Shown in pieces: positions 1 to 17,976 of a DNA stretch of 29,227 nt (position 1 is its first letter; each line of letters begins with the position of its first letter). The notes beneath the pieces were generated by a model. That model was not told the origin of the DNA and ran no database searches. It saw only the letters and a program-made list of their open reading frames with translations. The position numbers and the translations under genes were made by a program. The stretch is from a virus, in the IMG/VR virus record IMGVR_UViG_3300032241_002703, positions 1 to 29,227 of that record. The stretch is one strand, 5' to 3'.

Positions 1-1714
1 CTGATCCTTGAAGGAGGCGGTTGAGCGCTTTGTGTGTAAATGCTCGCCTTATTTTTGGTCCCCACTTTTCTATGGCTTCCTCATAAGGCAAGTACACACT
101 GCCGTCATGGGAAAAAGTTGGCTCATACAGAGGAAAACGTGCATACCTGCCTGCAAAGGTGCGAATGTGTCCTTTTTGCGCCGCCCGCTGGCTTGCCAAA
201 TTGTAGATGTCTTTCACAAACGGAAAGGTAGAATGGTATTGCTCAAAGAGCGGTTTGACCTCTTCAAGCTCCCGCCCCAAGTTGGAGGCAAGCGCTTTTT
301 CACCCATGCCATACACTAGACCGAAATTGATACTTTTTGCCTCTTTCCTTGGCACACCTGTGAGGTTTGAAACAAATTCATGGAAATCTGTTTTTGGATC
401 AGTGCGGTATTGAGAGCGGGCGAGGTCAGCGGATTCACCGGTGCCGTAGTGTACCAGCATCCGGTATTCTATCTGAGAGTAGTCAAAAGATCCCCAAGAG
501 CTATGCCCAGCATCAGGCACAAAAATGGAGCGAATAAGAGGACCAAGCTCAGGATCACGAGCGGGAATGTTTTGCAAATTAGGCGTTGAAGAACTAAAGC
601 GACCAGAGACAGTGCCAGAATCATCAGACCGCAAAGGATGAAATTGTCCATAGATTCTGCCTCCTTTATGGCTCTCTAAAATGTAAGACCGAATAAATGT
701 ATCTCTTGCTTTGGTCAACTTTCTACACTCAGCAATCTCAGGAATGTTATCCTCCAACCACTTCGATCTGAATGATGGTTTACCCGTGTTGGTCATGGGA
801 TAAGACAATTTCCTAGCCCTTGCTACTTTCTCAACATCAGCGGCAGCATAAATGTTGACACCACCCAATGTCTTTTCTATGGTTTCAATTCTTGCACTCA
901 ACGCATCATCTACTATTTTTGCTTTTTCTAAATCCACCCTTACCCCATGCTGCCTCATCTTCAACAGGATGGGCAACAACGCACTCTCAAGGTCAAACAG
1001 GCCCATGAGCCCTTGTTCTGCAAGGATTTCTTTTTGCTTGTTCCACACATGGATTGCTAATGAGGCATCTGCCTCTGCATAGGGTCCGACCAGCGCAGGA
1101 GGGCATCGGTATATGTTGCCAGCCTGTTTTCTTTCTGCATTGCCTCCATATGCTCTAGCAGCCCAGTCATATAGTCTTTTTTCCTCTTTGGTTTCTCCAA
1201 GATATTTTTTGGAGAGCGCATTGAGAGAATAGCTGAGAGCATGCTCATCAATGAGTGGTTCAGCAATTTGGATATCCCTAATTGCTCCTTTAGTCTGTAT
1301 ACCCAAGCTGGCGAGCCATCCGATATCGTAGAGAGCGTTAGCAAATACCTTTTCTGTTTCCTCATTTTCTGCAACCGCTTTGATAAAAGCAAGAACGGAT
1401 GCCCTGTCCTGGTTTTCGCCAAGCGTGTGTGCAATCGGAAAATACCAGGCCTTGTCTTCTGTGGCAATTGAGATGCCTGCCACATAGCCCTCACCGGTGG
1501 CCCAACCCGGACCGAGGTCAAAGATTTTTGGATCATAAGTCTCCGTATCAATAGCAATCTGTTTTACACCGGTCAAATTGGGGAAGCTGTGCATTTTCCA
1601 GCCGGTGTCGGGTATAGAAGGTATGGGGCGGTTAGTTTGTTGCTTAGCGCCCTTTTTATCCGATTTGACAGTTTCAATGTCTTCCCAAAATAAGCCCTGT
1701 GAATCATGTCTCAT
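1..1714 (-). CDS. Family A DNA polymerase (PolI-like) with 3'-5' exonuclease, C-terminus cut by window edge
   Basis: This is the phage replicative DNA polymerase of the PolA family, read as an open frame of about 571 codons running off the left edge. The N-terminal half holds a DEDDy proofreading exonuclease: ExoI with D56 and E58 (AIDTET), ExoII N126 to D130 (NALYDIGWL), and ExoIII Y212 to D216 (YAEADAS). The polymerase half shows SGRFSSSTPNLQNIP, motif A at about D411 (DYSQIEYR), and the O-helix at about residues 455-470 (RKEAKSINFGLVYGMG). The frame stops at the window edge near the LLQGSA motif, so the motif C catalytic acid is outside. The start ATG overlaps the stop of the clamp-like gene as ATGA. 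There is no 5'-3' exonuclease domain, as is usual for phage enzymes. Family assignment is firm; the replicative role is inferred from context. Confidence 0.95.
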   Translation of the reverse strand, partial: MRHDSQGLFWEDIETVKSDKKGAKQQTNRPIPSIPDTGWKMHSFPNLTGVKQIAIDTETYDPKIFDLGPGWATGEGYVAGISIATEDKAWYFPIAHTLGENQDRASVLAFIKAVAENEETEKVFANALYDIGWLASLGIQTKGAIRDIQIAEPLIDEHALSYSLNALSKKYLGETKEEKRLYDWAARAYGGNAERKQAGNIYRCPPALVGPYAEADASLAIHVWNKQKEILAEQGLMGLFDLESALLPILLKMRQHGVRVDLEKAKIVDDALSARIETIEKTLGGVNIYAAADVEKVARARKLSYPMTNTGKPSFRSKWLEDNIPEIAECRKLTKARDTFIRSYILESHKGGRIYGQFHPLRSDDSGTVSGRFSSSTPNLQNIPARDPELGPLIRSIFVPDAGHSSWGSFDYSQIEYRMLVHYGTGESADLARSQYRTDPKTDFHEFVSNLTGVPRKEAKSINFGLVYGMGEKALASNLGRELEEVKPLFEQYHSTFPFVKDIYNLASQRAAQKGHIRTFAGRYARFPLYEPTFSHDGSVYLPYEEAIEKWGPKIRRAFTHKALNRLLQGS

Positions 1715-2676
1715 GAACGAACCCCAATGATCATACCTTTGAGGTTACCTGTACCGCTGAATGGACAAGGGCTAGGGTAAGTGGTGAAATCCGCCTTGAT
1801 TGCTTCATCGAGCGTTTTCTCAATCATCTCAGCCCTGAACCTTGCCTCCGGCAACTCAATGCCTTCTACTGATGCACTATGCACCCCATCCATGGTATGC
1901 ACCCCTTTAGCATCAAACACCACCACTGGGAATTTAGGATCAGGATGGAAGTGAGCGATCTTGGTTACTGCATCCGCCAACTGTCCGGGAACAGCAGGCA
2001 ATTGCTCATAGTCAAATTTGTCTAGCATTTTTTGCACATCAGGCCACTCCAAACTAGAAGGCAACACACGCATCCAAAATTTGTCATAGATAAAGTAAAT
2101 GTAGTTGTCTTGTTGCATCATGGCAACTGGGTCTTGCCCCACTCTTATCATCTCATCAATGGCAGAAATTGGAAACGATGCATTGATAGGAGAAACAAAG
2201 GGCAAGCTGACCAGAATCACATTGTTGGTGGCGTAGAGGATATTGTTCTTAAAGAGCAAGGAACAACTCCACGGCCTTGATGCATCATCAGAAATAAAAG
2301 GTTTAAGACGCTTCAATGCCGCTACCAGCCCTTTATTAACTGTCTGCGCTATACCTGCTGGTGGTGGAGGTGTGATGGGATAGTCAGCCGCTGCCATCAA
2401 AGGCAAGGTGGCTTTAAAACCAAGGCGCTTGATGGTAAGTTTACTGTCCTTTACCGTAATGGTGGGTTCACCGTCACAGGCATTGGCAGCTTTCAAAAAG
2501 CGAGACGCTGGGACAGTGGCATGCACACCGGCAAGCTCTGAGCATTCAGCATCAATCGCTACTGCCCTTCCATCCATTCCTTGGATGCGCCCGTTGTAGA
2601 TATGGATGTGTGTGAAGGCAGGGACAAGGTCCTTGTCCGCCACTGTGCCCGCTACTAGTTTGATGGTTTCTAACAT
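1711..2676 (-). CDS. Putative DNA sliding clamp (DnaN/beta-like)
   Basis: The 321-residue product resembles bacterial beta clamps in pattern rather than strong identity. VPASRFLKAANAC, then a TITVKDSKLTIKRLGFKATLPL strand pair ending in an ADYP turn, matches the end of clamp domain 1. A second unit (ALKRLKPFISDDASRPW, then LYATNNVILVSLPF) and FPISAIDEMIRVG match domain 2, and the chain ends in a strand like the clamp C-terminus. It would be a ring-shaped processivity factor for the adjoining polymerase, whose ATG overlaps this stop codon. I chose the ATG at 2676 because AGGAA lies a few bases upstream and it follows the dpdA stop by 7 bases; a longer frame to 2724 would run into dpdA. The family is fairly likely, not certain. 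Confidence 0.65.
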   Translation of the reverse strand: MLETIKLVAGTVADKDLVPAFTHIHIYNGRIQGMDGRAVAIDAECSELAGVHATVPASRFLKAANACDGEPTITVKDSKLTIKRLGFKATLPLMAAADYPITPPPPAGIAQTVNKGLVAALKRLKPFISDDASRPWSCSLLFKNNILYATNNVILVSLPFVSPINASFPISAIDEMIRVGQDPVAMMQQDNYIYFIYDKFWMRVLPSSLEWPDVQKMLDKFDYEQLPAVPGQLADAVTKIAHFHPDPKFPVVVFDAKGVHTMDGVHSASVEGIELPEARFRAEMIEKTLDEAIKADFTTYPSPCPFSGTGNLKGMIIGVRS

Positions 2677-2683
2677 TTTATTC

Positions 2684-3622
2684 CTATAAGTCAAACAAAG
2701 AATCTTGATACATGGCGTTGGCATCAGGAAGCACCTTGAGCCATTCCACCGTTTCCAATCCAGTCATCACCCGTCTTGCCATGTGCTCAGATTTCAATTC
2801 CTCAATGGTGATACCATGCAAAGCAGCCCTTGCCGCTATCACATCCACCATGTGCTTGGGCACGGTATTGATGTGAACATCTTTGGTGAATCGGTTAGGG
2901 CTTTCATTGGAGGTAGATATTTGGCACAGTTTACCATTGTGCAAATACTTCACCCCACCCATAACTGCTGTATACAACCAGTAAGCGGAATCCACAGAAT
3001 ACCACGGCACTTGTCTTAACATGGTTTCACCGGTAGCTGCCAATCCATGAGTTTTTTTGTTAGGCAATTTCCGGTGCACATAATTTGCCCATGAGCGTCT
3101 AGACACCTCTGACAAATCATTTCGAGGTGAGACACAGATGTAGTCAGCCATGTCCGCCACTTCAAACATTCTTTGCTCCGACTCATTCTGGTGAAACACT
3201 GGCAACACCACAGGTCCAAATTCTTGGGTCAGGAGTTTGAAGTTTTCATCTGATGTTTTAATAGCGTCCGCTATTTCCTCTTCACCCGCTGTAACACCTG
3301 GCGAACCAGGAATCACATCCAAGTTAATGAGCCACACCTTTACATGACTTGGGATCAACTTCATCACATCATGGTAGGTGGCAATGAGGTTGGGCAACTG
3401 CACCTGTTTCCCCTTTGACCAAGCGGTGAAGGCGCCGGAGTCAAGAATCATCTCCTTAACCGCTGCTCCTTCAATTTTGCACAGTTCAGCCCACTTTTTT
3501 GCCTCTTTAATGTAATGGTCATGGCAAGAGCATAGACGGTAGTCAAATGCCCGAGCCAGCTTTTCCTCAATGGCGTCTGAACCGCCAATGGTGCCGGAAA
3601 AGAAATACTTTACCTTACTCAC
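2684..3622 (-). CDS. dpdA: DpdA, 7-deazaguanine DNA transglycosylase (TGT-like)
   Basis: DpdA is a relative of tRNA-guanine transglycosylase that swaps guanine in DNA for a 7-deazaguanine base. The product (312 residues from this start) carries ILDSGAFTAWSKGK, matching the TGT DSGGF catalytic segment, and a later PWYSVDSAYW block whose Asp is the likely nucleophile. It also has HGLAATGETMLRQ between them, typical of phage DpdA. The family usually lacks the tRNA-binding parts of bacterial TGT, consistent with this length. It directly follows queF and precedes the clamp and polymerase genes, which places base exchange next to replication. The start is uncertain: the GTG at 3622 overlaps the queF stop by 8 bases, and a TTG at 3637 adds five residues. 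Neither has a good ribosome site, so translational coupling to queF is likely. Confidence 0.88.
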   Translation of the reverse strand: MSKVKYFFSGTIGGSDAIEEKLARAFDYRLCSCHDHYIKEAKKWAELCKIEGAAVKEMILDSGAFTAWSKGKQVQLPNLIATYHDVMKLIPSHVKVWLINLDVIPGSPGVTAGEEEIADAIKTSDENFKLLTQEFGPVVLPVFHQNESEQRMFEVADMADYICVSPRNDLSEVSRRSWANYVHRKLPNKKTHGLAATGETMLRQVPWYSVDSAYWLYTAVMGGVKYLHNGKLCQISTSNESPNRFTKDVHINTVPKHMVDVIAARAALHGITIEELKSEHMARRVMTGLETVEWLKVLPDANAMYQDSLFDL

Positions 3623-4058
3623 CGCGATAGTACTCAAAAGTAGGCCAGAAAGGAATCCCGCCTCTGGGGGTGAATTGTCCTTCTACTTTCACATATTCTG
3701 GGTCCAACAGGTCAATGAGGTCTTGAGCAATCCGGGTCACACAACTCTCATGAAACTCCCCCACCTGCCTGAATGAGCCCAGATACAATTTCCAAGATTT
3801 TGACTCCACACACCACTCCCTTGGTTGATACTTCACAACTATGGTAGCAAAATCAGGTTGACCAGTCAAGGGACAGAGAGAGGTAAATTCAGGAGAAGTA
3901 ATTTTGATGCTGGTGTTAGCAAGAGAATTCCCCGCCTTTACTCTAATTTTCATCGGGTTGGGAAAGCGCTCAAGCAACTTTGGGTCAGCGCCGTCATACT
4001 GGTAAGAGGTGTCTTTACCAAGTGCTTTTAGATCATCTGTTTTAGAAAGTTTTTTCAT
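3615..4058 (-). CDS. queF: QueF, NADPH-dependent preQ0 reductase
   Basis: QueF reduces the nitrile of preQ0 (7-cyano-7-deazaguanine) to the aminomethyl group of preQ1. At 147 residues this is the short, single-domain type. It has the thioimide-forming Cys62 in TSLCPLTGQPDF with Asp69, the QueF signature ESKSWKLYL at residues 85-93, and FHESC followed by FTPRGGI near the end. All diagnostic positions are intact, unlike in QueC and QueD of the same operon. Its ATG lies four bases after the folE stop and the ribosome site AAAGGA spans that stop. A true QueF next to DpdA implies preQ1, rather than preQ0 or archaeosine, is the base supplied for DNA modification. That last step is inference. Confidence 0.95.
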   Translation of the reverse strand: MKKLSKTDDLKALGKDTSYQYDGADPKLLERFPNPMKIRVKAGNSLANTSIKITSPEFTSLCPLTGQPDFATIVVKYQPREWCVESKSWKLYLGSFRQVGEFHESCVTRIAQDLIDLLDPEYVKVEGQFTPRGGIPFWPTFEYYRGE

Positions 4059-4061
4059 TTT

Positions 4062-4619
4062 TCATCCTTTAATTAAACGCATTAACTCTTCTTTTGCTGA
4101 GCGATCCCACTCAAACAAACCTTTCATGGCAGAGGTCACTGTAGTGGATCCTTGCTGCCTTATACCTCTTGACTCCATACACATATGGCGACATTCTACC
4201 ACCACTCCTACCGCTTTGGGCGCCAAGGCGTTTTGAATAGCCTCCGCTACCTGACTGGTCAAGCGTTCTTGCACCTGAAGACGGCGGGCGTAAATGTCCA
4301 CCACTCTTGACAACTTGGAGAGCCCTACAATTCTACCATCCGGTATGTAGGCCACATGGGCTTTTCCGAAAAAAGGCGCCAAGTGGTGCTCACAATGACT
4401 GTAGAGTGGAATGTCTTTAACCAAAATAATTTGGTCATAGTTTTCTGCACCATCTTCAAAAGTTTTAAGAACATCTGCAGGATTGATGAGGTACCCACCT
4501 GCCCAATGTTCCCATGCTTTAGCCACCCGATCAGGTGTCTCAAGCAAGCCACCCCTGTCTGGGTTTTCACCGATAACAGAATGCAGTAAGTGCTGGATAA
4601 TGGTTTTCTTATCAGGCAT
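4062..4619 (-). CDS. folE: FolE, GTP cyclohydrolase I
   Basis: The enzyme opens the GTP imidazole ring to give 7,8-dihydroneopterin triphosphate, the first step of both folate and 7-deazaguanine synthesis. The 185-residue protein has [14 protein letters not shown] near the N-terminus, the zinc and catalytic segment [19 protein letters not shown] (Cys76, His79), and [12 protein letters not shown] with the second zinc cysteine at 147. The GLSKLSR and QVQERLT segments of type I enzymes are present. Its start overlaps the queC stop by 8 bases (ATGCCTGA), and queF follows at once. Operon context assigns it to preQ0 supply rather than folate. Family assignment is essentially certain. Confidence 0.97.
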
Positions 4620-5406
4620 TCCGCAACTCCTCTATCTCCTGTACACATTGCACATACCATTCCCCTGTTTGCTTGTAGTTAGGGGTGTGAGGTAAAGGCA
4701 TCAAACCTTCTGACCACGCTCTTACCACTAAGGGGTCAGGCAAGTCAGCCTCCAAAAAGCCCTGTGCCCTTAGCACATTGGCATGATTGTTATCTACTGG
4801 TGGGTAGGTGCCGTCATAGGAAGTATGTGTGTAGGCAAGAGCAGCGTAGCCCTTAGCAGCTATCATACGCTTGATGCTTGATGCTTTGGTGTCGTTGAGC
4901 AAAGGGGCGATCACTTTAAGCTTGGAGATACCCAGCGACTCATTCGCCATAACTTCAAAATCATTGCGGTAAGCTTCTGTGCAATCTGGGTAGTTAGCGT
5001 TGTCTGCCTGGCAAATACCTGTGATAAGTGTGAAGCAATCAGCAACCACAGCTCTGTTAGCAGCAACAGTGAAAAACAGAGTATTGCGCATGGGAACAAA
5101 AGTAAGTTCCACCCGATTGCCAATGATCTTGTCCATGGACTGATAATCTTCATATTTCTCAAGCTCCTCTTGCGGATTGGTTAAAGGTGATCTGCCTTTT
5201 AAAATTGGACCTAATTCTACTACTTCATGACTTGCACAACCAGCGATTCTGGCAACTTTTTTAGCCGCCTCAATCTCAAGCCTGTGCTTTTGGTTGTAGT
5301 CAAAGGTTACTGCATGAACCTCTTCATAGTGTTGCTTGGCTAGAAACAAGCAGGTTGTCGAATCCTGACCGCCTGACAAGATGACCATCGCTTTCTCTTT
5401 TAACAT
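4612..5406 (-). CDS. queC: QueC-like preQ0 synthase lacking the zinc cysteines
   Basis: QueC converts 7-carboxy-7-deazaguanine and ammonia to preQ0 with ATP, through an amide intermediate. The 264-residue product has the PP-loop SGGQDSTTC near residues 11-19, [16 protein letters not shown] and [12 protein letters not shown], all in family order. The C-terminal zinc site is not there: where bacterial QueC has a TxTCYNG block followed by CGxCxxC, this protein reads [20 protein letters not shown] (residues 193-212), with Ser, Asp and His in place of cysteines. The fold around it (VLRAQGF) is retained, so this looks like a diverged site, not a frameshift. The ribosome site AGGGA overlaps the queD stop region. 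It should still be catalytically active if zinc is only structural; alternatively the reaction may differ. Confidence 0.9.
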
Positions 5407-5408
5407 TT

Positions 5409-5861
5409 TTAGTCCCTTAGTTTAAAAATTGCTGAATTGGCGCCGTGCTCTTTCACCTCCACACTCACCAACCGGCATCTTGGTGAATGACTGTTCTTTG
5501 CTAACCAAGAGATTGCCATGCCAGCGCAAAGTTCTGCAAAGGCCTCACAACCCACCTTATCAACAACAACAATATCTGCTATACCTCTTATGTATGCTTG
5601 CTCATACCATTCAAGCTCCGGATCATCTTTTGCAACCAGCAGCTTGTGGTCAAACCAGCTTTCAAGTTCTGCCTTTAACGATTTAAGACTGCCAAAGTCA
5701 ATGACCCAGTTGTTATCATCTAGGTATTCTGCTTCAAACTCAAACCTAATAGACAAGGCATAACCGTGAATAAAGTGGCAATGACTTTTCGCTCTCCATT
5801 GTCTAAAAGCAGCTGACAGGCCAATCTCATGACCGTATGTTTTTGTTGATCTATAACTCAT
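5409..5861 (-). CDS. queD: QueD-like 6-carboxytetrahydropterin synthase, variant metal site
   Basis: QueD turns dihydroneopterin triphosphate into 6-carboxy-tetrahydropterin, the step after FolE. The 150-residue protein matches the PTPS/QueD family: [14 protein letters not shown], the catalytic pair FDHKLL (Asp71, His72), and the late Glu in EVKEHGA (Glu138). The catalytic Cys28 lies in [11 protein letters not shown]. The usual three zinc histidines are not all present: the first (in AAHRL of bacterial QueD) is Phe19 in SAAFRQW, the second is His32, and the third (HGH) is Tyr34. His27 or His29 may substitute. An AFRQW...HGYAL form seems to be a phage-associated subfamily, from memory and unchecked. 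The ATG overlaps the queE stop as ATGA. Confidence 0.87.
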
Positions 5862-6571
5862 GGCAATCCAATCATTTTGTGGGTTTGTAAAGTTAGCCGA
5901 TAGTCATGTTCCATGCACAATTTGGCGGCTAGTTGGGTGTTGACAAAAGTGGTGTCCCAATCGGGATCGCCTTTCTTATCGTATTCCGCCATCGGTTGAA
6001 GCCAGATGGTATCAGTTGGGCGCTTGGGATGGAAAATGTACAGCTTCTCCCCTTTGCGCTGTGTAGATTTATTGGGCAAACCGTCATACGGATCTGTTTC
6101 ACCGTCTTTGATAATGTATTTCCAATGGTAACAATTGGCCTCAATCATTGGATGCACACTTCCTGTTTTAGGGGAACAAACAATTTCAATCTGCCCATCC
6201 CTTACTGGATGCCACAACTCATCTTGCCACAAAGTGCCAGCGGTTTCAATTTGAATCTTAAAACCATTAACAATGAGTGGTTTGCAGATTTCATATAGGT
6301 TTTGCCTGAAAGGCTCACCTCCGGTGATCACCACAAATTTACACGGATACTTACTTATCTCTTGCTGGATTTGAGCAGCGGTAAAATAAGTGGTTGATGA
6401 TTCAAAGTCAGTATCACAGAAGTGGCAACGTAAATTGCACCCAGCAAGCCGCAAAAACACCGCTGGCTTACCCGAATACGGACCTTCCCCTTGGATGGTA
6501 TGGAATATTTCTTGAACCCAGAAATGCCCCGTTCCTAAATCCTGCTTAAGTATTTGATTTTTTCCAAACAT
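5858..6571 (-). CDS. queE: QueE, 7-carboxy-7-deazaguanine synthase (radical SAM)
   Basis: QueE uses S-adenosylmethionine and a 4Fe-4S cluster to rearrange 6-carboxy-tetrahydropterin into 7-carboxy-7-deazaguanine. The 237-residue product starts with the substrate-binding block IFHTIQGEGPYSGKPAVFLR and then has the cluster motif CNLRCHFCDTDF with Cys45, Cys49 and Cys52. FVVITGGEPFRQ follows, then IETAGT and SPKTG, which are typical SAM- and substrate-contacting blocks. It is the first pathway gene of the operon. Its ATG shares one base with the preceding stop (TAATG), and GGAGAGGA lies upstream. All key residues look intact. Confidence 0.95.
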   Translation of the reverse strand: MFGKNQILKQDLGTGHFWVQEIFHTIQGEGPYSGKPAVFLRLAGCNLRCHFCDTDFESSTTYFTAAQIQQEISKYPCKFVVITGGEPFRQNLYEICKPLIVNGFKIQIETAGTLWQDELWHPVRDGQIEIVCSPKTGSVHPMIEANCYHWKYIIKDGETDPYDGLPNKSTQRKGEKLYIFHPKRPTDTIWLQPMAEYDKKGDPDWDTTFVNTQLAAKLCMEHDYRLTLQTHKMIGLP

Positions 6572-6789
6572 TAAATATCCTCTCCTTTTAAAAAACCTTC
6601 TTCAATCAACTTAGACACCCGTGAGAGTGTCCAGTCATACTCAGACCCAAACCCCACCAACATATAGTCCATCAAAGCGGAAAGGCGCATCTTGCCGCCT
6701 TCCAGTTTGATTTTACCAAGCACCATGCGATCAAGGGTTGCGATATTTCGCACAGGCTTGGTTAAAGTCAAGAGTACATCACTACTCAT
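6571..6789 (-). CDS. Small protein of unknown function, 72 residues
   Basis: I do not recognise this protein. It is 72 residues, mixed in charge, without membrane segments, cysteines or an evident motif. The second half (YDWTLSRVSKLIEEGFLKGED) looks helical, and could be a small winged-helix-like or adaptor fold, but that is a guess. It is real by context: its ATG overlaps the DUF932 gene stop as ATGA, and its own stop overlaps the queE start. Being locked between a DUF932-like gene and the 7-deazaguanine genes, it could have a role in DNA modification or replication. No function is assigned. Confidence 0.75.
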   Translation of the reverse strand: MSSDVLLTLTKPVRNIATLDRMVLGKIKLEGGKMRLSALMDYMLVGFGSEYDWTLSRVSKLIEEGFLKGEDI

Positions 6790-7769
6790 ACATCTACCAA
6801 TTCGTCCGCCAACCAGGCAGCTTTTGCTTTGATGTTGCGTCCATCACCAAACCAAGCACTGTCCATGCGAACATCATTGGAGCGACCTTTGTGGTGATCT
6901 ACATACTCAGTCACCGCATTGACCAATCCCCATACCGTTCCTTTAGCCGCTTTCATATCTGCGCCAATACCATCACCATGGAATAGGTTGTTGAGCAATT
7001 CTACTGTCCTGTTGGACACTACTGTATCGCCGTCATTGTCTGTGTACACAGCAACTTCTGAAAAGTAGTCAAGCGCTTGCTCATTGGACACACCTGTATT
7101 GCTCCAGGCATCAACATGCTTGATGAATGAATCCCAAGAGGTAGCTGCCAAGCCCAATTGTGCTTTGACTTTCTGATCGTCAAACACAGTGCGGTGGTTG
7201 ATACGGACAAGATTTTGAACCTTACCGCTATTGGCTTCTTCCATTGCAAAGGACAAGGTGTTATTGCACACCACCCGAATGCTTGTGAACATGGCAGTAG
7301 TTGCCATAGAACCGTCACAAGCGGTGCCCAGTAACAAGTAACCTTTGAGGGTGTCATCCAATACCTTTGCCTCTTTACCCATGTTGGCAAGTGCCCAGTA
7401 TTTGCGACCACCTTTGAGGACACCAGCAGTTTCTAATTGAAAGCCAGATTTCTCAGTCAAGTCACGATAAAATTCCAACACCTCTGCAGGTTGCACAATT
7501 TGGTAGCGGTTGGAAACCACAGCCAAGGGAGAGGAGTTATCGGAGCGGTACAACACTTTGCGATCAGGTACTTCTAAAATTTCACCCATACCAACATTTT
7601 CTTGGAAAAGGGCTCGGGTCTCAAGAATAGAAAAATCCATTCCCGCTGCTTCCTGCCATTGCTCAATGCTTGCACCTGCTTGCAATTGTTGTCCAAGGCC
7701 GTGCCAAGGGGTTTCCCCCACATAGGCCATAGCAGCAAATCCTTTAGTCATATCAATTTCGTGTGCCAT
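6786..7769 (-). CDS. DUF932-like phage/plasmid protein
   Basis: The 327-residue product looks like the DUF932 family (the phage/plasmid-like TIGR03299 type), found in many phages and plasmids with no settled function. Family-like features are the N-terminal AYVGETPWHGLGQQL, the YRSDNSSPLAVVSNRYQIVQP segment, and the middle block SIRVVCNNTLSFA, with a C-terminal region ending in KAKAAWLADELV. It has no signal peptide or membrane span. The start ATG has AAAGGAA upstream, and the preceding gene ends 19 bases away. It heads the tightly overlapped part of operon 2, so it is co-expressed with the DNA modification enzymes. A DNA transaction role is possible but unproven. Confidence 0.85.
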   Translation of the reverse strand: MAHEIDMTKGFAAMAYVGETPWHGLGQQLQAGASIEQWQEAAGMDFSILETRALFQENVGMGEILEVPDRKVLYRSDNSSPLAVVSNRYQIVQPAEVLEFYRDLTEKSGFQLETAGVLKGGRKYWALANMGKEAKVLDDTLKGYLLLGTACDGSMATTAMFTSIRVVCNNTLSFAMEEANSGKVQNLVRINHRTVFDDQKVKAQLGLAATSWDSFIKHVDAWSNTGVSNEQALDYFSEVAVYTDNDGDTVVSNRTVELLNNLFHGDGIGADMKAAKGTVWGLVNAVTEYVDHHKGRSNDVRMDSAWFGDGRNIKAKAAWLADELVDV

Positions 7770-7788
7770 GATAGTATTCCTTTAAAAA

Positions 7789-8082
7789 TTAGTTAGACAA
7801 TGCTTTTGTGGTTGCACTCAAAATGTTGTAAGTCACTGTAGTGTACTTGGCAACAATGTCTGCTGGAATGTTTGCCTCTTTAGCGGCTTTTGCCCAAGCA
7901 ACAGTTTTTTTCTCAGGAGTCACACCCACTGTGGTAACATAGATGGTGCCAGCGTATGTGCCAGGACCAAGAAGCTTGATCTGGTCTTTGTACGATTCTG
8001 CCTGTTCTTGCAATTCCTCAATCTTGTCTAGAATGAGGCCAAGTTGGTCAACAATTTGAAGAGCGTTAAGTGTAGTAGTCAT
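7789..8082 (-). CDS. Small early phage protein of unknown function, 97 residues
   Basis: This is the first gene after the 8107-8115 promoter. The N-terminal half (DQLGLILDKIEELQEQAESY) is likely a short coiled coil, followed by a small beta-rich part around GPGTYAGTIYVTTVG and a helical tail. I do not recognise the family. The ATG at 8082 is preferred over an upstream in-frame start at 8172, because the promoter and the conserved leader (8090-8104) lie between the two and would be inside the longer frame. First-gene position suggests abundant early expression. Confidence 0.75.
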   Translation of the reverse strand: MTTTLNALQIVDQLGLILDKIEELQEQAESYKDQIKLLGPGTYAGTIYVTTVGVTPEKKTVAWAKAAKEANIPADIVAKYTTVTYNILSATTKALSN

Positions 8083-8089
8083 GATGTTT

Positions 8090-8104
8090 CTTTCTTTACT
8101 TTCT
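8090..8104 (-). repeat. 15-base leader element, copy 1 (AGAAAGTAAAGAAAG)
   Basis: The minus strand reads AGAAAGTAAAGAAAG just downstream of the extended -10 element and just before the ATG of the 97-residue protein. The identical 15 bases occur at 14522-14536, in the same position relative to promoter and start codon of the SNF2 helicase gene. It is purine-only apart from one T and includes a ribosome-site-like run. It may act as initially transcribed region, translation enhancer, or binding site for a regulator. Confidence 0.65.
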
Positions 8105-8106
8105 GG

Positions 8107-8115
8107 TTTATAGCA
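8107..8115 (-). promoter_or_regulatory. Extended -10 promoter of operon 2
   Basis: On the minus strand this reads TGCTATAAA, an extended -10 element (TGn plus a TATAAT-like hexamer) typical of sigma70-type promoters. No good -35 hexamer is visible at 16-18 bases, as expected for an extended -10 site. The start of transcription would fall near 8100, some 18 bases before the ATG at 8082. It matches the site at 14545-14553 and is followed by the same 15-base leader. It would drive the small protein, DUF932, que, dpdA, clamp and polymerase genes. Confidence 0.6.
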
Positions 8116-8210
8116 GAACACTATTGTTGCTGCTTGTGTCCATTGTAATTCATAAAAATTAGGAATGTCCACCTTTTTTTAACTATTTTTAAAAAATATT
8201 TTTATCTATC

Positions 8211-9749
8211 TCAGACAGGCAATTGAAAAAACCTATTGCTCTGGGGCTGGACAATGTGCAAGTTGCGCTTTGCCCTAGTGACTCCCACATACATCACCCG
8301 TCTTTCTGCATCTGGGTGCGCCAGGTATTCTTCATAAGTTTTCTTTGCCATGTCCAAGTGAAGCACCACATTATCCGCCTCTCCTCCCTTTACTCCATGA
8401 ATAGTATTAACGTGCACCTCTGGGCGCCCAGTCAATCCCTCTGAACCCAAAGTCCTAAGAATAGTCAAATAGTATTCCACATCTTCCAATGGAATGCCTT
8501 TGAGTGCATCATGCCAAATGGCATTGGTTTGAAGACCGAAATTGACAGTTAAATCTTCTATAGTAAACATTTCTTCATCATGCATTTTAGACAATGTTTT
8601 ATATCCTCTTTTTACCCCTTCATTCACCTTCATTTGCTCATAAACTTTCTTAATGAGGTGACCAGGTTGTGGGTGTCCTGCTCTCAGCTTTTCCCATGTT
8701 TTAATGGCAATCAAATGATTGTTACTGATAGATGATGCTCCATGTCTTCTTATGAATGGTATACCAAGCAATTTCAAATTCCTCTCTATCCCTGGTAAGG
8801 CGTAGATATTTCTTGCAAGTATCAACCATGAGCCATGTCTTGGATTTATAGGAATAGCCTCTGGACTATTGTGGTATTCAATACTTCCCATTTCATTTCT
8901 TGGCACCACATCTTTATGATACCTCTTTCCCACCTCTTGAATGATTTTTTGAGACAAGTCAAAAATTTGTTTTGGCATACGGTGACTAATACCTAAAATT
9001 TCTTTTTCACCCTCAAGCTGAAGAAAAGTGCCAATGTCTGCACCTGACCATGAATAGATTGCTTGATCATCATCACCTGCTATGTAGATGCGCTTGCACC
9101 TAGCAAAGGCAACCCTTAAAACACTCCACTGAAGACTAGAAAGGTCCTGGGCTTCATCAATGAAGGCAACCTCACAACTTAGCGGCTCACCTGTGTTGGC
9201 GTAGCGGGTGAGAATATCTGTGAAGTCAAGGATACCGGCATCTTGCCTGTAGACATCAAAGGCGGTGGCGATTTGAAGAAACATATGCCAAGTGAAAGCG
9301 GGGTTGATTAGAGTTTGATATACCTCTTCCAGAGGCATTTGTTTGACCCTTGCCAATGAGGCGTAAAAAAGCATCTCATCACCGACAGTGGCACCCGCAG
9401 TTAATCCAGTAGCCTCATCCACATTAGAAGAAAAAGGCATCTGCATGATCTTAGAAAACTCCTCCATATTGGCTGAGGTGATCAATTCATTTTTCTTGAT
9501 CTCAATTTCACGGTATGCCATGGCATGAATGGTTTTGAAGTTGTACAGGTCTGCTCTTTCAAAATTAAATTTCTCACAAGTGCGCCTGACTACCTCCTGT
9601 ACCGCTTTCCGTGTGAAAGAGACAAAAGCAATATTTTGAATGGCAACCCCATCCTGTATTTCTTTGTCAAGTATGTTGAGCAAAGTGCTTGTCTTGCCAC
9701 ATCCAGGTGCACCAAGAATCAATTTTTGATGACCGGTGCCGAGCTTCAA
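8211..9749 (-). CDS. UvrD/Rep-like superfamily 1 DNA helicase
   Basis: An ATP-driven 3'-5' DNA helicase of the UvrD/Rep group, 512 residues. Motifs appear in order: Walker A GAPGCGKTS (Lys19), motif Ia FVSFTRKAVQEV, Walker B FIDEAQDLS, motif III GDDDQAIYSWSGAD, motif IV GISHRMP, motif V NTIHGVKGGEADNVVL, and motif VI VMYVGVTRAKRNL with the arginine finger. It would unwind DNA at the phage fork or in recombination. The start is a TTG whose TTGA overlaps the primase stop; GGAG lies about nine bases upstream, which supports it. It is shorter than bacterial UvrD (about 720 residues), as usual in phages. It closes operon 1; AT-rich DNA follows, without a clear terminator. Confidence 0.95.
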   Translation of the reverse strand: MKLGTGHQKLILGAPGCGKTSTLLNILDKEIQDGVAIQNIAFVSFTRKAVQEVVRRTCEKFNFERADLYNFKTIHAMAYREIEIKKNELITSANMEEFSKIMQMPFSSNVDEATGLTAGATVGDEMLFYASLARVKQMPLEEVYQTLINPAFTWHMFLQIATAFDVYRQDAGILDFTDILTRYANTGEPLSCEVAFIDEAQDLSSLQWSVLRVAFARCKRIYIAGDDDQAIYSWSGADIGTFLQLEGEKEILGISHRMPKQIFDLSQKIIQEVGKRYHKDVVPRNEMGSIEYHNSPEAIPINPRHGSWLILARNIYALPGIERNLKLLGIPFIRRHGASSISNNHLIAIKTWEKLRAGHPQPGHLIKKVYEQMKVNEGVKRGYKTLSKMHDEEMFTIEDLTVNFGLQTNAIWHDALKGIPLEDVEYYLTILRTLGSEGLTGRPEVHVNTIHGVKGGEADNVVLHLDMAKKTYEEYLAHPDAERRVMYVGVTRAKRNLHIVQPQSNRFFQLPV

Positions 9750-11257
9750 AAGTCTTTCTCCATCTCAGGTATGCTAAAGTCTTCAGATTGTTGAGCAAAT
9801 TCGTTGATAGACCAGCATTGCACACATTTCCCTTTGATGTTAAATTGGTGGTGGGATGCCCCGTTTCGTCTCAGGGCTGCCCATTGTTCTTTGTTGGTCA
9901 ATTCACGGAAATGCTGCTGATCTAAATAGCGGGCAAGATCTGCAGAACGGAAATAGGTGCGCCCCTCTGCTGACCAAGGTTTCCCTGCTAACAACTCATC
10001 TTGATGCCTTGCCTGTGCTTGTCCGGTGCAAAATGCCTCTACCAATTGAATGAACCTGCCTTCTGTAGATGCATCTGGCGGTGCCTCAATGAGCTCTACA
10101 TTTTCTAATTTCTCCTTCACCATCTTTTCCCATTTAAAGGGCTTAATGCGGTTAGGCAACTTGTTAATTTTTTCCATGCAGATTTTTCGGAATTTGTCCT
10201 GTGACAATAAGTCATCAGTATTCAATTCCAACCGCACACCATCTACATCAATGATCCATGTGGGCGGGTCAGAGAGAATTTTTACAAGTGTGCCCACATT
10301 GATGGACGGTTCATCTGAATCACCTTGACCAATACCAAATTCACGGTGCTTACAAACCTCTTTGTTGCAAAATCCCACAATAGGTGCTTTTGAGCAAGGA
10401 TAGAAATAATTCTTCCGGTTCAAGCTCTTGATGACCTGACCAACCTCTTTAAATGGCAAAGGTGGGTCTACATAGAGCCGGTTGTATTCTGTGACTTCTG
10501 ATTCCCAGTCATCTCCAAACTTCAACCTTGAATACACCCCCATAGCAAACAAACCTTCATTCCTTGCACCTTGAGGAATTTTATTAAGAGACAGTGCTTG
10601 CAAGCAGGGTGGGCCATCAGAAAAAGATTCTGTCTCTTTAATGGCAATGCTGGAGAGTTTTTCTTCAGTCAGCATATTCTGTATGCTTTCCGCTCTCTTC
10701 AAAAACTGCAACACTGCTGCTTTTTTCCCACCGATGATGGCATAGCGATCTGTTTTATCAGAATCAAAGTAAGGCATATTGATCCAGTTGCCCACATCAC
10801 GTGTACTGGCAAGCTTTACCTGCTTGGGAAATATCTCCACCCCTGGATATCCCAATACTGATGCAAACTTCATCAAATAATTTCGCACCTTATCTGCACT
10901 TACAGGTGTGTTAAGAAACAAGTACAGGTGTGCCCCTCCTGACTTGGTACGGCAAGGTACAAGAGGTAGGTTAAATTCTTTTAGCTTGGCTTCCAACTGC
11001 GGAATGTCAAGTGGGTAGGTATCAATGTCAATGGCACCCCAAGAACAAGTGGCATCGTCACGGATAGGAATCGCCCCTACCCCCAACTTGCCTTCCAAGT
11101 GGTTAATCCACTTTTCTACTGTTAACGGTTCAAGAACAGTGGTGGCTCTTCCCGCTACTTTTCCAGCTCCTAAAGAGGCTACATCAATTCTATACTGTCC
11201 ATGTGCACGGTGTAGACCTTGGAATAGCTTCTCAAATCTTTCTGCTATTTCTTTCAT
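9746..11257 (-). CDS. AEP (archaeo-eukaryotic) primase-polymerase
   Basis: A 503-residue primase of the AEP superfamily. The catalytic acids are in WGAIDIDTYP (Asp77, Asp79), followed by motif II with the nucleotide-binding SGGAHLYLF (His110), VEIFPKQ, and NWINMPYF near residue 157. This spacing resembles primases of the TOTE type and other phage AEPs. A C-terminal region near residues 286-310 has three cysteines in FYPCSKAPIVGFCNKEVCKH, which may bind metal or an Fe-S cluster. It would make primers for the phage polymerase and lies between the SSB-like and helicase genes, with the UvrD-like gene overlapping its stop. The ribosome site before the ATG is weak (TTGAGA). A relaxase-like or bifunctional primase-helicase is unlikely, since no helicase domain is seen. 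Confidence 0.85.
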   Translation of the reverse strand: MKEIAERFEKLFQGLHRAHGQYRIDVASLGAGKVAGRATTVLEPLTVEKWINHLEGKLGVGAIPIRDDATCSWGAIDIDTYPLDIPQLEAKLKEFNLPLVPCRTKSGGAHLYLFLNTPVSADKVRNYLMKFASVLGYPGVEIFPKQVKLASTRDVGNWINMPYFDSDKTDRYAIIGGKKAAVLQFLKRAESIQNMLTEEKLSSIAIKETESFSDGPPCLQALSLNKIPQGARNEGLFAMGVYSRLKFGDDWESEVTEYNRLYVDPPLPFKEVGQVIKSLNRKNYFYPCSKAPIVGFCNKEVCKHREFGIGQGDSDEPSINVGTLVKILSDPPTWIIDVDGVRLELNTDDLLSQDKFRKICMEKINKLPNRIKPFKWEKMVKEKLENVELIEAPPDASTEGRFIQLVEAFCTGQAQARHQDELLAGKPWSAEGRTYFRSADLARYLDQQHFRELTNKEQWAALRRNGASHHQFNIKGKCVQCWSINEFAQQSEDFSIPEMEKDF

Positions 11258-11275
11258 GTTGTCTCAATGTAAGGC

Positions 11276-11316
11276 GGGGTAGCATGACAAACAAAGTTGC
11301 CTGCCATCACTACCCC
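11276..11316. repeat. Inverted repeat between SSB-like and primase genes
   Basis: GGGGTAG at 11276-11282 pairs perfectly with CTACCCC at 11310-11316 across 27 bases, in the 65-base gap upstream of the primase ATG. There is no T-run after it on the minus strand, so it is not a simple terminator. As RNA it would form a hairpin just upstream of a gene with a weak ribosome site, so it may affect translation of the primase. Chance occurrence is possible. Confidence 0.4.
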
Positions 11317-11322
11317 TAAACT

Positions 11323-12111
11323 TTAGAATGGAATGTCAGCGTCAGTTTGTTGAGTAGCAGGCGCACTAGGCTTTGCTTCTCCTGTTTTTACTGCATCTCT
11401 AAAAGATTTGGCAGCTTGGTACAGGTTAGCGTCTGTTACTGCCCCAGCTGCTTCAATTTTCCAACCATACCATGAACCTTGATCGTTTTGCTCAGGAACA
11501 GTGGTCAGTTTGTAGGAGTGACTGAACATGGGTGGTGTAAATAAAAGCCCTTGAGCGTTTTTGGCTTTCAAGGATTCCATTCTTGTCATCCACTGTCTTG
11601 ACTTTTTGACCTGAGTACTTGACATAGAAATCAAGGCGGGTGCAAAGCTTTGCAAGTCATCACTCAACACCAAGACATAGTGTGTGCGAGTGTCAACCAA
11701 AATATTACCAGAAGGCAATACCAGTTGATTTTTAGCATCACGTTGAGCGGTGGTGACCAATTCATCAGAAGGCAAATGTTCGCCCACCAATCCGCCACTT
11801 CCTCCAGAATCACGTGGCACCCATTCAAGAAAGCGCCTGGTGAAGTAGGCAGGAATCACTGTGATGCCTTTACCACCATCTATGATTTCCTGACTTACCG
11901 AATTGAACAAAAATCCTTCTTCTGCACCTTTGATGTAGGCGCCATCAGATTTTTTGACCTGTGGTGATCCGGATTGCAAAATAGAAATAAATGGAATCGA
12001 ATAAGAATCGCGATCTGCATTCTCAAATCCTGCCCCACTGTCTTCCTCAAACATACTAGCTAATGCCAAAGCGTTATTTTGTTTCAACGCTACTTCTTTA
12101 CTATCTGCCAT
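11323..12111 (-). CDS. Putative single-stranded DNA-binding protein (SSB-like)
   Basis: The 262-residue product ends in acidic, tip-like DADIPF after a linker rich in Pro, Ala, Thr and Gln. This is the hallmark C-terminal peptide by which SSB proteins recruit replication partners (bacterial SSB ends DDDIPF). The body has SIPFISILQSGSPQVKK at the front, GKGITVIPAYFTRRFLEW, and a KKSRQWMTRM block with basic and aromatic residues, but no OB fold I can recognise by eye. It sits directly before the primase and helicase genes, in keeping with fork protection. AGGAG precedes the ATG. A recombination-associated phage protein is an alternative, so the call rests on tail and context. Confidence 0.6.
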   Translation of the reverse strand: MADSKEVALKQNNALALASMFEEDSGAGFENADRDSYSIPFISILQSGSPQVKKSDGAYIKGAEEGFLFNSVSQEIIDGGKGITVIPAYFTRRFLEWVPRDSGGSGGLVGEHLPSDELVTTAQRDAKNQLVLPSGNILVDTRTHYVLVLSDDLQSFAPALISMSSTQVKKSRQWMTRMESLKAKNAQGLLFTPPMFSHSYKLTTVPEQNDQGSWYGWKIEAAGAVTDANLYQAAKSFRDAVKTGEAKPSAPATQQTDADIPF

Positions 12112-12126
12112 GGTAGGCTCCTATTT

Positions 12127-12160
12127 AAAAAATGCCTGACTAGTTTAGCCTCCGTCAGGC
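12127..12160 (-). terminator. Rho-independent terminator-like hairpin within replication operon 1
   Basis: On the minus strand GCCTGAC (12160-12154) and GTCAGGC (12140-12134) form a 7-base perfect stem with a 13-base loop, followed at once by A and six Ts. This is the form of an intrinsic terminator. It lies after the 170-residue gene and only 16 bases before the ATG of the SSB-like gene, whose ribosome site directly follows the T-run. No promoter fits between them. It probably acts as a partial terminator or attenuator that adjusts SSB, primase and helicase levels. Confidence 0.65.
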
Positions 12161-12170
12161 TCAAGAGGTT

Positions 12171-12683
12171 CTACTTCACAGTAGCCTTGGTCACCTGAAA
12201 CGCACCAAAGGTTTCAAGTGGAATGTTGTTGCCTTGGGAGAGTTGCTCCTTCACAAATGCTTTGAGAGTGGATGCGTGTACTGAGCGTTTATCCTCAGGA
12301 TTCAATCCCATAGCCCTTGCTTTGGAAATGAGTTCTTGTGCAATCTCATCCTCCTCTTTAGCAAAAGAAGCAGAAACCACATGCTTGATGATACCACCAA
12401 ACCCATTATCAGTAAGCCATCTAAAAGCCTCATCTTCTTTTCCTTTTGGTATAGATGCAAATACATCTTCCTTGGTTGATACTTTCATGCCGTTTTCCAA
12501 GGTAAACGAACTTACCCCTGCCTCAAACATGGCGGTTGGCAAGTCAACCTCTGAAACCTGTTTTAACAAGTCTTTGAGCTCCTCTAGCCGCTCCTCTGAA
12601 TCTTCTATGGCATCAAGTAATTCTATCTGTTTCTTTGCCAAATCAGAAATCTGCTTAATGCTGTCGTTTGTTGGTAATGTCAT
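12171..12683 (-). CDS. Phage protein of unknown function, 170 residues
   Basis: Not recognised. The first 50 residues are strongly charged and heptad-like (IELLDAIEDSEERLEELKDLL), so a coiled coil is likely. The rest is mixed, with KVSTKEDVFASIPKGKEDEAF and FGGIIKHVVSASFAKEED, and ends in PLETFGAFQVTKATVK. There is no membrane span. The ATG overlaps the previous stop as ATGA. Its place between the SNF2-like helicase set and the SSB-like gene suggests a replication or recombination accessory. No function is assigned. Confidence 0.8.
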   Translation of the reverse strand: MTLPTNDSIKQISDLAKKQIELLDAIEDSEERLEELKDLLKQVSEVDLPTAMFEAGVSSFTLENGMKVSTKEDVFASIPKGKEDEAFRWLTDNGFGGIIKHVVSASFAKEEDEIAQELISKARAMGLNPEDKRSVHASTLKAFVKEQLSQGNNIPLETFGAFQVTKATVK

Positions 12684-13027
12684 ACTGCTCTCCCAGAAGT
12701 ATCAATTTGAATGGCGATGTAGTCACGCATGAGTTTGTCCCATTTAAGCAACTTCACCCGCCCCTTGTTGTTCTCCGCTGCCACTATTGCCGATACAGCA
12801 ATGATAGACGGATCCCCAATGGTCAGAAGGTAGTCATCATCTGAAAACCCCTCCAACTGCTCCTTGATGGTCCGGACAGTATGCACAGGTGCAAAGAGCG
12901 CCCTGCCTGCCGGTACCAGTACCTTGGGTTGACCGAATTTTAATGCGGGAGTCATATCAAACTCCGGCACCAATTCACCCAAAGAATTTCTTCTCATCTT
13001 TTCCTGCGTGATAAATACATATGACAT
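12680..13027 (-). CDS. Phage protein of unknown function, 115 residues
   Basis: Not recognised. It starts SYVFITQEKMRRNSLGELVP and has a middle YLLTIGDPSIIAVSAIVAA segment, then GRVKLLKWDKLMRDYIAIQI. It is probably a compact alpha/beta protein with no signal or membrane span. I start it at the ATG at 13027, which is three bases after the helicase stop and has AGGTGG upstream; an in-frame GTG at 13039 inside the helicase gene is less likely. It is co-transcribed and translationally linked to both neighbours. Confidence 0.78.
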   Translation of the reverse strand: MSYVFITQEKMRRNSLGELVPEFDMTPALKFGQPKVLVPAGRALFAPVHTVRTIKEQLEGFSDDDYLLTIGDPSIIAVSAIVAAENNKGRVKLLKWDKLMRDYIAIQIDTSGRAV

Positions 13028-13029
13028 TC

Positions 13030-14514
13030 TTATATCCACCTTAATTTGGGGTCACCAGTTACTAATGATGCTACATCTTGCTTATTTCTCAATGCTGCTA
13101 CTATTGCTTTGTCTATTGTGTTTACCGCTTCTACGTCTACATAGGTTACGGTTTGCGCTTGTCCTATTCGGTGTGCTCGATCTTCAGATTGAAGTCGAGT
13201 CTCAAGAGAGTAATCGTTCGAATAGTAAATTACAGTAGTGGCAGCGGTCAAGGTCAATCCAATACCGCCTGAGTGTGGTTGACCCACAAAAAAGCGGGCA
13301 CTCTTTGCCTGAAAGCGGTTCACTGCATTTACCCTATTCTCATTACTTACCTCTCCAAAATAGGTGACCACCGCATCAGCGCCGTATTCTTGAGCAATCA
13401 TTTGTTCTATTTCTTTGATTTCTGCAACAAAGCGAGCCCAAATGATCACACCGCCTTGCACTTCCTCCAAAATATCCATCAAGCACTTGATTCTCGGGTT
13501 TTGCTCGGGTTTTTCAAAAAAAGAGGTACCATCAACACGGTGTCCGCCAACAACCTGTTGTAGACGCAGTATGGCTTCAAGTTTGGATAACATTTTCAAT
13601 TCACCATCTTCCATTTGAGCACGCAATTCGTTTTTGATGAGTTTGTAGGCAGATTCCTGCGCTGTACTCATCTCATGATACACTCTTTGGTACACTTTGG
13701 GCGGTAAATCCAAACACTCCACTTTCCGTTTGCGGTAAGAATGTGGTGAGATAAGTGCTTGCAGCTTGTCAAGATTTTTCCAAATGGGTTTACCGAATTT
13801 ATCTTTTGCTATCACTTGAGGTGTAAACTTACTCCCCGTTCTTGCTGTGATGTGGCGCATCAAACCATGGTTGGCAGGTAAAAGCTCTGAATACTCAGCT
13901 TTGAAAGCATAAAAGCTGCTGGTTCCTAAAATGTTTTCATCAAGAAACAAAAATTGAGAAAAAACATCAGTGGGGCCTTGAGTGACTGGTGTTCCGGTCA
14001 TGATTCTCCGGTATTGCGCATGCTTTGCTAATTTCAGCAAATTCTTGGTTCGAGCTGCCGTTGGAGTCTTAATTCTTGATGATTCATCAACAACAAACAA
14101 TGTCTTGTGACAATTTAACCAGCTAGAAGCAATTTCTAACCCCTTTTTAGATGAGAACGCTTCTACGTTGAGGGATAACCAACGTAATCCATCAAAACCC
14201 GTTTTAAACAAGTTTTCAAGGTTTTGCTTTTCTGTCTTGTTAGCAGTAGCAGACCAATAAGCGGATTGGTATGGTGCCCAATCGGGGTGGTGAGTGGGGA
14301 TTTCGTTGTGAATCCAATTGCGGTGAACACCGTTGGGGGCAACTACAAGAACAGCATCAATCCTACCTGCACCGTAAAGGTAAGCTGCGGTATCTATGAT
14401 GACTTTGGTTTTACCTGTGCCTTGTTCCATTAACAAAGCAAAATATTCACGGTCCCGTGAAATTTCATAAGCCTCAAGCTGATGCTTGTAAGGCAAAGTC
14501 TTAAACTGATCCAT
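13030..14514 (-). CDS. SNF2/DEAD-like superfamily 2 helicase
   Basis: A 494-residue superfamily 2 ATPase of the SNF2 type. It has a Q-like N-terminus (LPYKHQLEAYE), Walker A MEQGTGKTK (Lys35), motif Ia VVAPNGVHRNW, Walker B VVDESSRIK, motif III MTGTPVTQGP, and in the second RecA domain GIGLTLTAATTVIYY and the motif VI EDRAHRIGQ typical of SNF2 proteins. Such phage enzymes likely move along double-stranded DNA to remodel protein-DNA complexes or help at forks. The ATG at 14514 is used because AAAGAAAGG lies upstream and the promoter at 14545-14553 sits before it; the longer frame from 14565 would contain the promoter. First gene of operon 1. Confidence 0.93.
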   Translation of the reverse strand: MDQFKTLPYKHQLEAYEISRDREYFALLMEQGTGKTKVIIDTAAYLYGAGRIDAVLVVAPNGVHRNWIHNEIPTHHPDWAPYQSAYWSATANKTEKQNLENLFKTGFDGLRWLSLNVEAFSSKKGLEIASSWLNCHKTLFVVDESSRIKTPTAARTKNLLKLAKHAQYRRIMTGTPVTQGPTDVFSQFLFLDENILGTSSFYAFKAEYSELLPANHGLMRHITARTGSKFTPQVIAKDKFGKPIWKNLDKLQALISPHSYRKRKVECLDLPPKVYQRVYHEMSTAQESAYKLIKNELRAQMEDGELKMLSKLEAILRLQQVVGGHRVDGTSFFEKPEQNPRIKCLMDILEEVQGGVIIWARFVAEIKEIEQMIAQEYGADAVVTYFGEVSNENRVNAVNRFQAKSARFFVGQPHSGGIGLTLTAATTVIYYSNDYSLETRLQSEDRAHRIGQAQTVTYVDVEAVNTIDKAIVAALRNKQDVASLVTGDPKLRWI

Positions 14515-14521
14515 GTAACAC

Positions 14522-14536
14522 CTTTCTTTACTTTCT
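14522..14536 (-). repeat. 15-base leader element, copy 2 (AGAAAGTAAAGAAAG)
   Basis: Identical on the minus strand to the element at 8090-8104 and in the same place: after the extended -10 hexamer and before the start codon. The spacing from TGCTATAA differs (9 bases here, 3 in the other copy). Its final AAAGAAAGG overlaps the ribosome site of the SNF2-like gene. Confidence 0.65.
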
Positions 14537-14544
14537 ATGCAACC

Positions 14545-14553: not shown

Positions 14554-14565
14554 ATATTTTGTCAT

Positions 14566-16096: not shown

Positions 16097-16097
16097 G

Positions 16098-17966: not shown

Positions 17967-17976
17967 GTTTTATTCC

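Follow-up and report, generated by a model that had tools for sequence, protein, structure and literature searches.

A compact six-gene phage operon predicted to place preQ1 in DNA, and a DpdA loop motif associated with QueF

The virus record IMGVR_UViG_3300032241_002703 of IMG/VR, from a bacterial virus known through environmental sequence only, is a fragment of 29,227 bases, the whole of which was analysed here (the window). On its minus strand the genes QueE, QueD, QueC, FolE, QueF, DpdA, clamp, and PolA follow one another in this order. The first six (2684-6571) had been described in an earlier note on this DNA as a complete operon for modifying DNA with preQ1 (7-aminomethyl-7-deazaguanine). 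Open reading frames (ORFs) on the minus strand and family matches for all six confirm their presence there.

5858..6571, minus strand: QueE-like radical S-adenosylmethionine (SAM) enzyme (7-carboxy-7-deazaguanine synthase), CX3CX2C retained; phrog_2076 E 9.5e-48, Radical_SAM E 8.2e-10, 6nhl E 2.9e-17
5409..5861, minus strand: QueD-like 6-carboxytetrahydropterin synthase; phrog_2389 E 2.4e-41, PF01242 E 6.2e-17
4612..5406, minus strand: QueC-like 7-cyano-7-deazaguanine (preQ0) synthase; PF06508 E 1e-44, predicted fold like QueC 3bl5
4062..4619, minus strand: FolE, guanosine triphosphate (GTP) cyclohydrolase I; PF01227 E 4.9e-70, NF006825 above its cut-off
3615..4058, minus strand: QueF, preQ0 reductase dependent on reduced nicotinamide adenine dinucleotide phosphate (NADPH); PF14489 E 7.9e-30, TIGR03139 133.9 bits, 4f8b E 9.1e-35
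2684..3637, minus strand (TTG start; GTG at 3622 likelier): predicted DpdA, DNA-guanine transglycosylase; phrog_887 E 2.6e-39, fold of tRNA-guanine transglycosylase (TGT), SPRND loop at residues 170-174
1711..2724, minus strand: sliding clamp; phrog_947 E 9.8e-50
2..1714, minus strand: family A DNA polymerase (PolA), truncated by the window end; PF00476 E 6.3e-39

The genes had been called overlapping throughout. Overlaps exist at three of the five junctions (QueE/QueD, 4 base pairs (bp); QueC/FolE, 8 bp; QueF/DpdA, 8 or 23 bp), but the remaining pairs of genes are separated by 2 and 3 bp. The likelier DpdA start is the GTG at 3622, not the TTG at 3637, because relatives have ATG at that place. 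The clamp start is probably the ATG at 2679, since the phrog_947 match begins at residue 16. The word complete applies to the families, all six of which are present and conserved. For the pathway it can only be presumed, because QueC and QueD are found without canonical zinc ligands. QueC, QueD, and QueE do not reach the cut-offs set for the corresponding NCBIfam equivalog models.

Ten close IMG/VR contigs, fetched by a search with the window QueF, serve as relatives. Identity to them is 76-79% for QueF and 67-78% for DpdA. All six genes are found in the same order in eight of the ten. Of the other two, G004 starts inside QueD, and G003 was compared over bases 1-20000 of 21291 only, a part that holds DpdA, clamp, and PolA. 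In contigs other than G001 the FolE and QueF matches are separated by about 260 bases, which are mostly open as an N-terminal extension of the QueF reading frame. The ratio of nonsynonymous to synonymous substitution rates (dN/dS) between two relatives ranges from 0.02 (DpdA) to 0.13 (QueC) across the six genes; in the comparison of the window with L005, synonymous sites approach saturation. Judged by the conserved order and these ratios, the six-gene arrangement is more than chance, and the genes are evidently under purifying selection. In the relative G009, a ferredoxin-family gene (L033:17124-17765, phrog_3704) encodes a possible electron donor for QueE.

The window QueF scores above the curated cut-off (86.9 bits) of TIGR03139, the preQ1 synthase model. 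Its best match is the B. subtilis-type QueF 4f8b, with which the Cys, Asp, ESKSWKLY, and FHE stretches are aligned. We take these to be the catalytic Cys and Asp, the ESK(S/A)xKLY motif, and the His-Glu pair of QueF. The structure 4fgc has Ala at the catalytic Cys column. DNA of Streptococcus phage Dp-1, which has both QueF and DpdA, carries dPreQ1 (about 1.7% of G), while neither dPreQ0 nor archaeosine (dG+) reaches the detection limit; HVTV-1 DNA has also been measured as dPreQ1 (PMC6884629). The most likely base of the window phage DNA is dPreQ1, because family score and active-site residues identify QueF as a nitrile reductase, and because of the Dp-1 measurement. The prediction of dPreQ1 from a true QueF thus stands, while its presentation as unusual does not, as Dp-1 and HVTV-1 precede it.

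DpdA has no Pfam or NCBIfam match, and a search of solved structures finds no relative by sequence at E 1 or better. Sequence searches with the CAjan and window enzymes place those of CAjan and 9g among its relatives. In CAjan, DpdA is required for the modification, which protects against restriction (PMC6884629). The predicted model of the window DpdA (mean predicted local distance difference test (pLDDT) 67, predicted template modelling score (pTM) 0.71) matches TGT best at Z 13.5 and root mean square deviation (rmsd) 4.0 over 253 aligned residues, with Z 12.6-13.5 among the matches listed, and it also matches the R5C enzyme in BFVD. Both TGT catalytic aspartates are kept, in LDSGAF and VDS stretches. 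The TGT zinc motif CxCxxC is found in E. coli Tgt, not in the window DpdA. At the position of the TGT GGLAVGE loop, MAFFT and hhalign alignments place SPRND (S-P-x-N-D) in the window DpdA. The Leu231/Ala232 part of the TGT loop presumably contacts the 7-aminomethyl group. In TGT the Leu231/Ala232 peptide flips and its carbonyl is exposed to the preQ1 pocket, with Glu235 behind (PMC3660597).

This loop was compared with that of about 240 other DpdA enzymes in two sets. Set 1 consists of 125 DpdA rows (the window, 18 named phages, and 106 loci); nt-1 DpdA, which belongs to another subfamily, and E. coli Tgt were removed before counting. Among the 120 IMG/VR loci of this set, 14 are without a DpdA of at least 230 amino acids (aa), and the DpdA survey did not include 80 loci from bacterial genomes. 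QueF was called by PF14489 on whole records (real QueF at least 50 bits, FolE cross-matches at most 33), and was seen within the locus for the window relatives and a few others. All 58 SPxND rows have QueF, none of the 54 rows without QueF has SPxND, and 13 rows have QueF without SPxND; note that many loci were fetched with the window DpdA, which biases the set toward SPxND with QueF. Dereplication at 90% leaves 91 rows, in which SPxND goes with QueF in 33 of 33, QueF-less rows have SPxND in 0 of 52, and six rows have QueF without SPxND. Counting QueF-less rows only where the phage is named or the contig reaches 30 kilobases gives 0 of 35. The Fisher p for set 1 is 3e-15, a statistic that ignores relatedness.

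Three DpdA scans contributed 2, 80, and 66 new loci to set 2, 148 in all, and the presence of QueC and QueF was scored inside each fetched locus; close relatives of Dp-1, sought with a single query, numbered two. Among loci with QueC, those with and without QueF number 19 and 0 for SPxND, 0 and 37 for GG-type loops, and 0 and 8 for other loops, SPINN (L411) included. Among loci without QueC the corresponding numbers are 2 and 26 for SPxND, 1 and 3 for SxxND, 0 and 8 for GG, and 0 and 44 for others. Once eight set-1-like rows are removed and the rest dereplicated (113 rows), QueF accompanies 18 of 18 SPxND loci with QueC and 0 of 30 of the rest. Whole contigs were then considered for 28 QueF-less SPxND or SxxND cases (L391, on the same contig as L323, was left out). 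A QueC match is present in seven; five of these are full-length, and all five contigs have QueF elsewhere. In the other two, QueC is matched weakly and in part only (39 bits), the loop reads SSTND, and QueF is absent. Both genes are missing from the remaining 21. Contigs with QueC and a GG or other loop, also checked whole, have QueF in 0 of 19. In the combined sets, the dereplicated QueC rows (137) give QueF for 51 of 51 SxxND enzymes and for 6 of 86 others.

Two simpler rules were dropped. That QueF always goes with SPxND fails for an FGGI(V/A)I clade of DpdA, which has QueF with ESK(S/A)LKLY. Nor does an SPxND loop invariably imply a QueF gene in its locus: loci without QueC break this rule, and 21 of the 28 whole contigs have neither gene. 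The clade with FGGI(V/A)IGG(E/K) loops and QueF comprises L070, L072, L073, L074, L078, L083, L084, L086, L103, L131, and L132; its loop ends in Glu in 9 of 11, like bacterial TGT. Bacterial TGT uses preQ1. SPxND enzymes on contigs without any QueC or QueF match (L317, L318, L320, L327, L333, L358, and L382) are candidate users of host preQ1. MMDA13 gp33 (L060:5669-5965) is annotated as QueF-like but has no ESK..KLY stretch, and the sole PF14489 match in the whole MMDA13 record is a FolE cross-match.

In a tree built without the motif region, the motif has four independent transitions on supported branches. QueF shifts the same way in 3.7 of 4 (set 1) or 4.0 of 4 (combined sets) and never in the opposite way. 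The clearest transition separates Dp-1 (QueF, SPAND) from MS1 (no QueF, GGLVG), which are fully supported sisters. The association between motif and QueF is strong, yet it runs through few clades. This pattern suggests that preQ1 itself is inserted by SPxND DpdA, so that reduction would precede insertion. There is perhaps an even chance that the charged 7-aminomethyl group is what the SPxND loop recognises and that this loop marks preQ1-inserting DpdA, with QueF acting before insertion and the base readable from the DpdA sequence. The simplest reading is that SPxND DpdA takes preQ1; phages making their own base would then need QueF, and SPxND enzymes from contigs that have no pathway genes would draw on preQ1 of the host. 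The loop motif adds a separate line of support for dPreQ1. No earlier description of the DpdA motif was found in the literature searched, which did not cover Cui et al. 2023; the available text of PMC12783734 and PMC11780129 has nothing on the question.

Both the QueC-like and the QueD-like protein depart from the canonical form at the zinc site. Canonical QueC is defined by SGGxDS, YxQxHxxE, VPxRN, and YPDC motifs together with a C(x)8CxxCxxC zinc motif (PMC13329287). The window protein retains SGGQDS, YNQKHxxE, VPMRN, and YPDC and has S, V, N, and N at the four Cys columns, so it is not a canonical QueC; its predicted fold matches QueC 3bl5 at Z 21.0 and rmsd 2.9 over 195 aligned residues. 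The QueD-like protein has F, H, and Y at the three canonical zinc His columns, which we take to be E. coli H16, H31, and H33. Two of the three are thus replaced, the Cys is kept, and the protein is not a canonical QueD. Zinc-less QueC is also found in Pan1, R26L, MMDA13, RHEph04, HD01, Iggy, and PSASB_03, and Me-ZS1 QueC is without the zinc motif. The motif is kept in E. coli, CAjan, Dp-1, phiSM, nt-1, 9g, VpKK5, MS1, Sabella, HVTV-1, Mufasa8, and Funsized. One or more of the four Cys is missing in 75 of 80 viral loci vs. 5 of 80 bacterial and archaeal genome loci, figures biased by the window query with which the loci were fetched. Of the 64 viral loci having QueD, 35 have aromatic residues at two of its zinc His positions. 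The zinc-less QueC-like and QueD-like variants (window; L062-L141) form a large phage group, in which they occur often, not always, together.

The gene set and its neighbourhood have close counterparts. The Nanhaivirus phages Pan1, R5C, and R26L share with the window a block of SNF2 helicase, primase, helicase, QueD, QueC, FolE, QueF, DpdA, clamp, QueE, and PolA. The window QueF is 55-58% identical to theirs, both have an SPRND DpdA, and the zinc ligands of QueC and QueD are missing in Pan1 and R26L too. While the six genes are contiguous in the window, QueE is apart from the other five in Nanhaivirus and extra genes interrupt the set. DpdA of Nanhaivirus is 430-433 aa vs. 317 aa, and has an N-terminal insertion and a C-terminal extension (L003:10400-11701, L004:9740-11041), neither of which is in the window DpdA. 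Dp-1 likewise has QueF, QueC, QueD, QueE, FolE, and DpdA together, an SPxND-type motif (SPAND), and a clamp nearby. Unlike the window, it has another gene order, an extra transporter, QueC and QueD whose zinc residues are canonical, and a DpdA of a distant clade. Queuovirinae (9g, CAjan, and VpKK5), Me-ZS1, PSASB_03, and HD01 have QueE, QueC, QueD, FolE, and DpdA, then clamp and, where the stretch reaches, polymerase; in contrast to the window, their cassettes are without QueF and their DpdA loop is of GG type. CAjan DNA carries dPreQ0 and 9g DNA carries dG+ (PMC6884629). The window operon is therefore a new compact phage example of an already known gene set and anti-restriction chemistry.

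The coupling to clamp and polymerase had been singled out as notable. DpdA adjoins the clamp, with polymerase after it, in 9g, VpKK5, Me-ZS1, and PSASB_03; it is one gene from the clamp in HD01, Iggy, and MMDA13; and a clamp lies within three genes after it in CAjan, RHEph04, Dp-1, and MS1. By this comparison the neighbourhood is ordinary for DpdA phages.

From these observations a probable course of events can be outlined. FolE and the QueD-like, QueE, and QueC-like proteins, whose genes adjoin DpdA, would make preQ0 from GTP, and QueF would reduce free preQ0 to preQ1. DpdA would then act on DNA synthesised by the adjacent clamp and PolA, swapping guanine for preQ1. It is rather likely that the operon in this way replaces part of the guanines in phage DNA by preQ1 and blocks host restriction enzymes. 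We infer the activity of each enzyme, the insertion of preQ1 and not preQ0, the reading of preQ1 by the SPxND loop, and insertion after replication; the anti-restriction role would be as in CAjan, from which it is carried over by analogy.

Several points weigh against this scheme. The QueC-like and QueD-like proteins do not have the canonical zinc ligands, and in the literature text consulted, no phage with a zinc-less QueC has a measured base content. Profile mapping of DpdA on E. coli Tgt is weak (hhalign probability 3.3%, E 0.013), and the DpdA model is low-confidence at residues 200-249, which include the second catalytic aspartate. The association of motif and QueF comes down to only four independent transitions, for which a sign test is underpowered (p 0.125). 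QueF does not require SxxND, because six dereplicated DpdA with QueF are without it (Funsized, L070, L073, L103, L131, and L259). The near-motif APGQD of L244 has no QueF on its contig, and L411, with SPINN, has QueC and no QueF. Finally, 26 SPxND loci of set 2 have neither QueC nor QueF in the locus.

Among other explanations, the one that fares best, though unlikely, is that the base is a decorated (methylated or formylated) preQ1 whose further enzymes are encoded outside the fragment. The record is indeed a fragment, and Cui et al. 2023 reportedly describe such bases and their enzymes in phages. No methyl- or formyltransferase is found among PHROGs matches of the 28 scanned window ORFs, or in 10 of the 22 ORFs in bases 1-20000 of G009. 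Slightly less plausible is that DpdA inserts preQ0, which QueF then reduces in DNA. The order of reduction and insertion was left unclear in 2019, and archaeal QueF-L works on tRNA-bound preQ0, but bacterial QueF acts on the free base (PMC6884629). The six QueF-associated DpdA with non-SxxND loops would fit preQ0 insertion, while a DpdA loop that changes with QueF is unexpected if DpdA always takes preQ0.

It is improbable that the pathway depends on preQ0 or preQ1 from the host, its zinc-less QueC-like and QueD-like proteins being inactive or altered in activity. The missing ligands and the scores of QueC and QueD under the equivalog cut-offs would agree with this, but the other QueC motifs are kept, dN/dS is low, and the variants are widespread and kept beside DpdA. 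A shade more improbable is a role as auxiliary metabolic genes that raise queuosine in host tRNA, with the transglycosylase acting on tRNA. The authors of Pan1 and R5C read the homologous genes as tRNA queuosine genes (PMC9837993, PMC5454422), while those of R26L predicted that the genes protect phage DNA (PMC11806900). Against a tRNA role, DpdA belongs to a family of phage enzymes needed for DNA modification (PMC6884629), is without the TGT zinc motif, and lies beside clamp and polymerase. Very improbable is that QueF is a QueF-L amidinotransferase and the DNA carries dG+: phage QueF is often called QueF-L by HHpred, but the NADPH-motif stretch ESKSWKLY and the TIGR03139 score argue otherwise, and Dp-1, whose protein is so called, has dPreQ1 and no detected dG+ (PMC6884629).

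The rest of the replication block is transcribed ahead of the operon. It is identified by Pfam and PHROGs matches, and the same block is found in relatives.

6571..14565, minus strand: rest of the replication block
13030-14565, minus strand: SNF2-type helicase
9746-11257, minus strand: primase
8211-9749, minus strand: helicase
6786-7769, minus strand: DUF932 gene, with smaller ORFs beside it

No Rfam family is matched at the gathering score, preQ1 riboswitches included, and no tRNA gene was found in the window. Promoter-like and terminator-like sites in 1-15000 occur at about the same frequency as in shuffled sequence (26 vs. a mean of 24.2, and 15 vs. a mean of 14.3). A long protein encoded at 19209-23411 has weak tail-fibre matches and runs of Thr-Ser-Ala-type and Gly/Ser/Thr-rich repeats.

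The gene set adds one phage lineage to a known anti-restriction chemistry. A DpdA motif that tracks QueF makes the order question, preQ1 inserted vs. preQ0 reduced in DNA, testable with purified enzymes, and it may serve as a rule by which the 7-deazaguanine of a phage is predicted from sequence.

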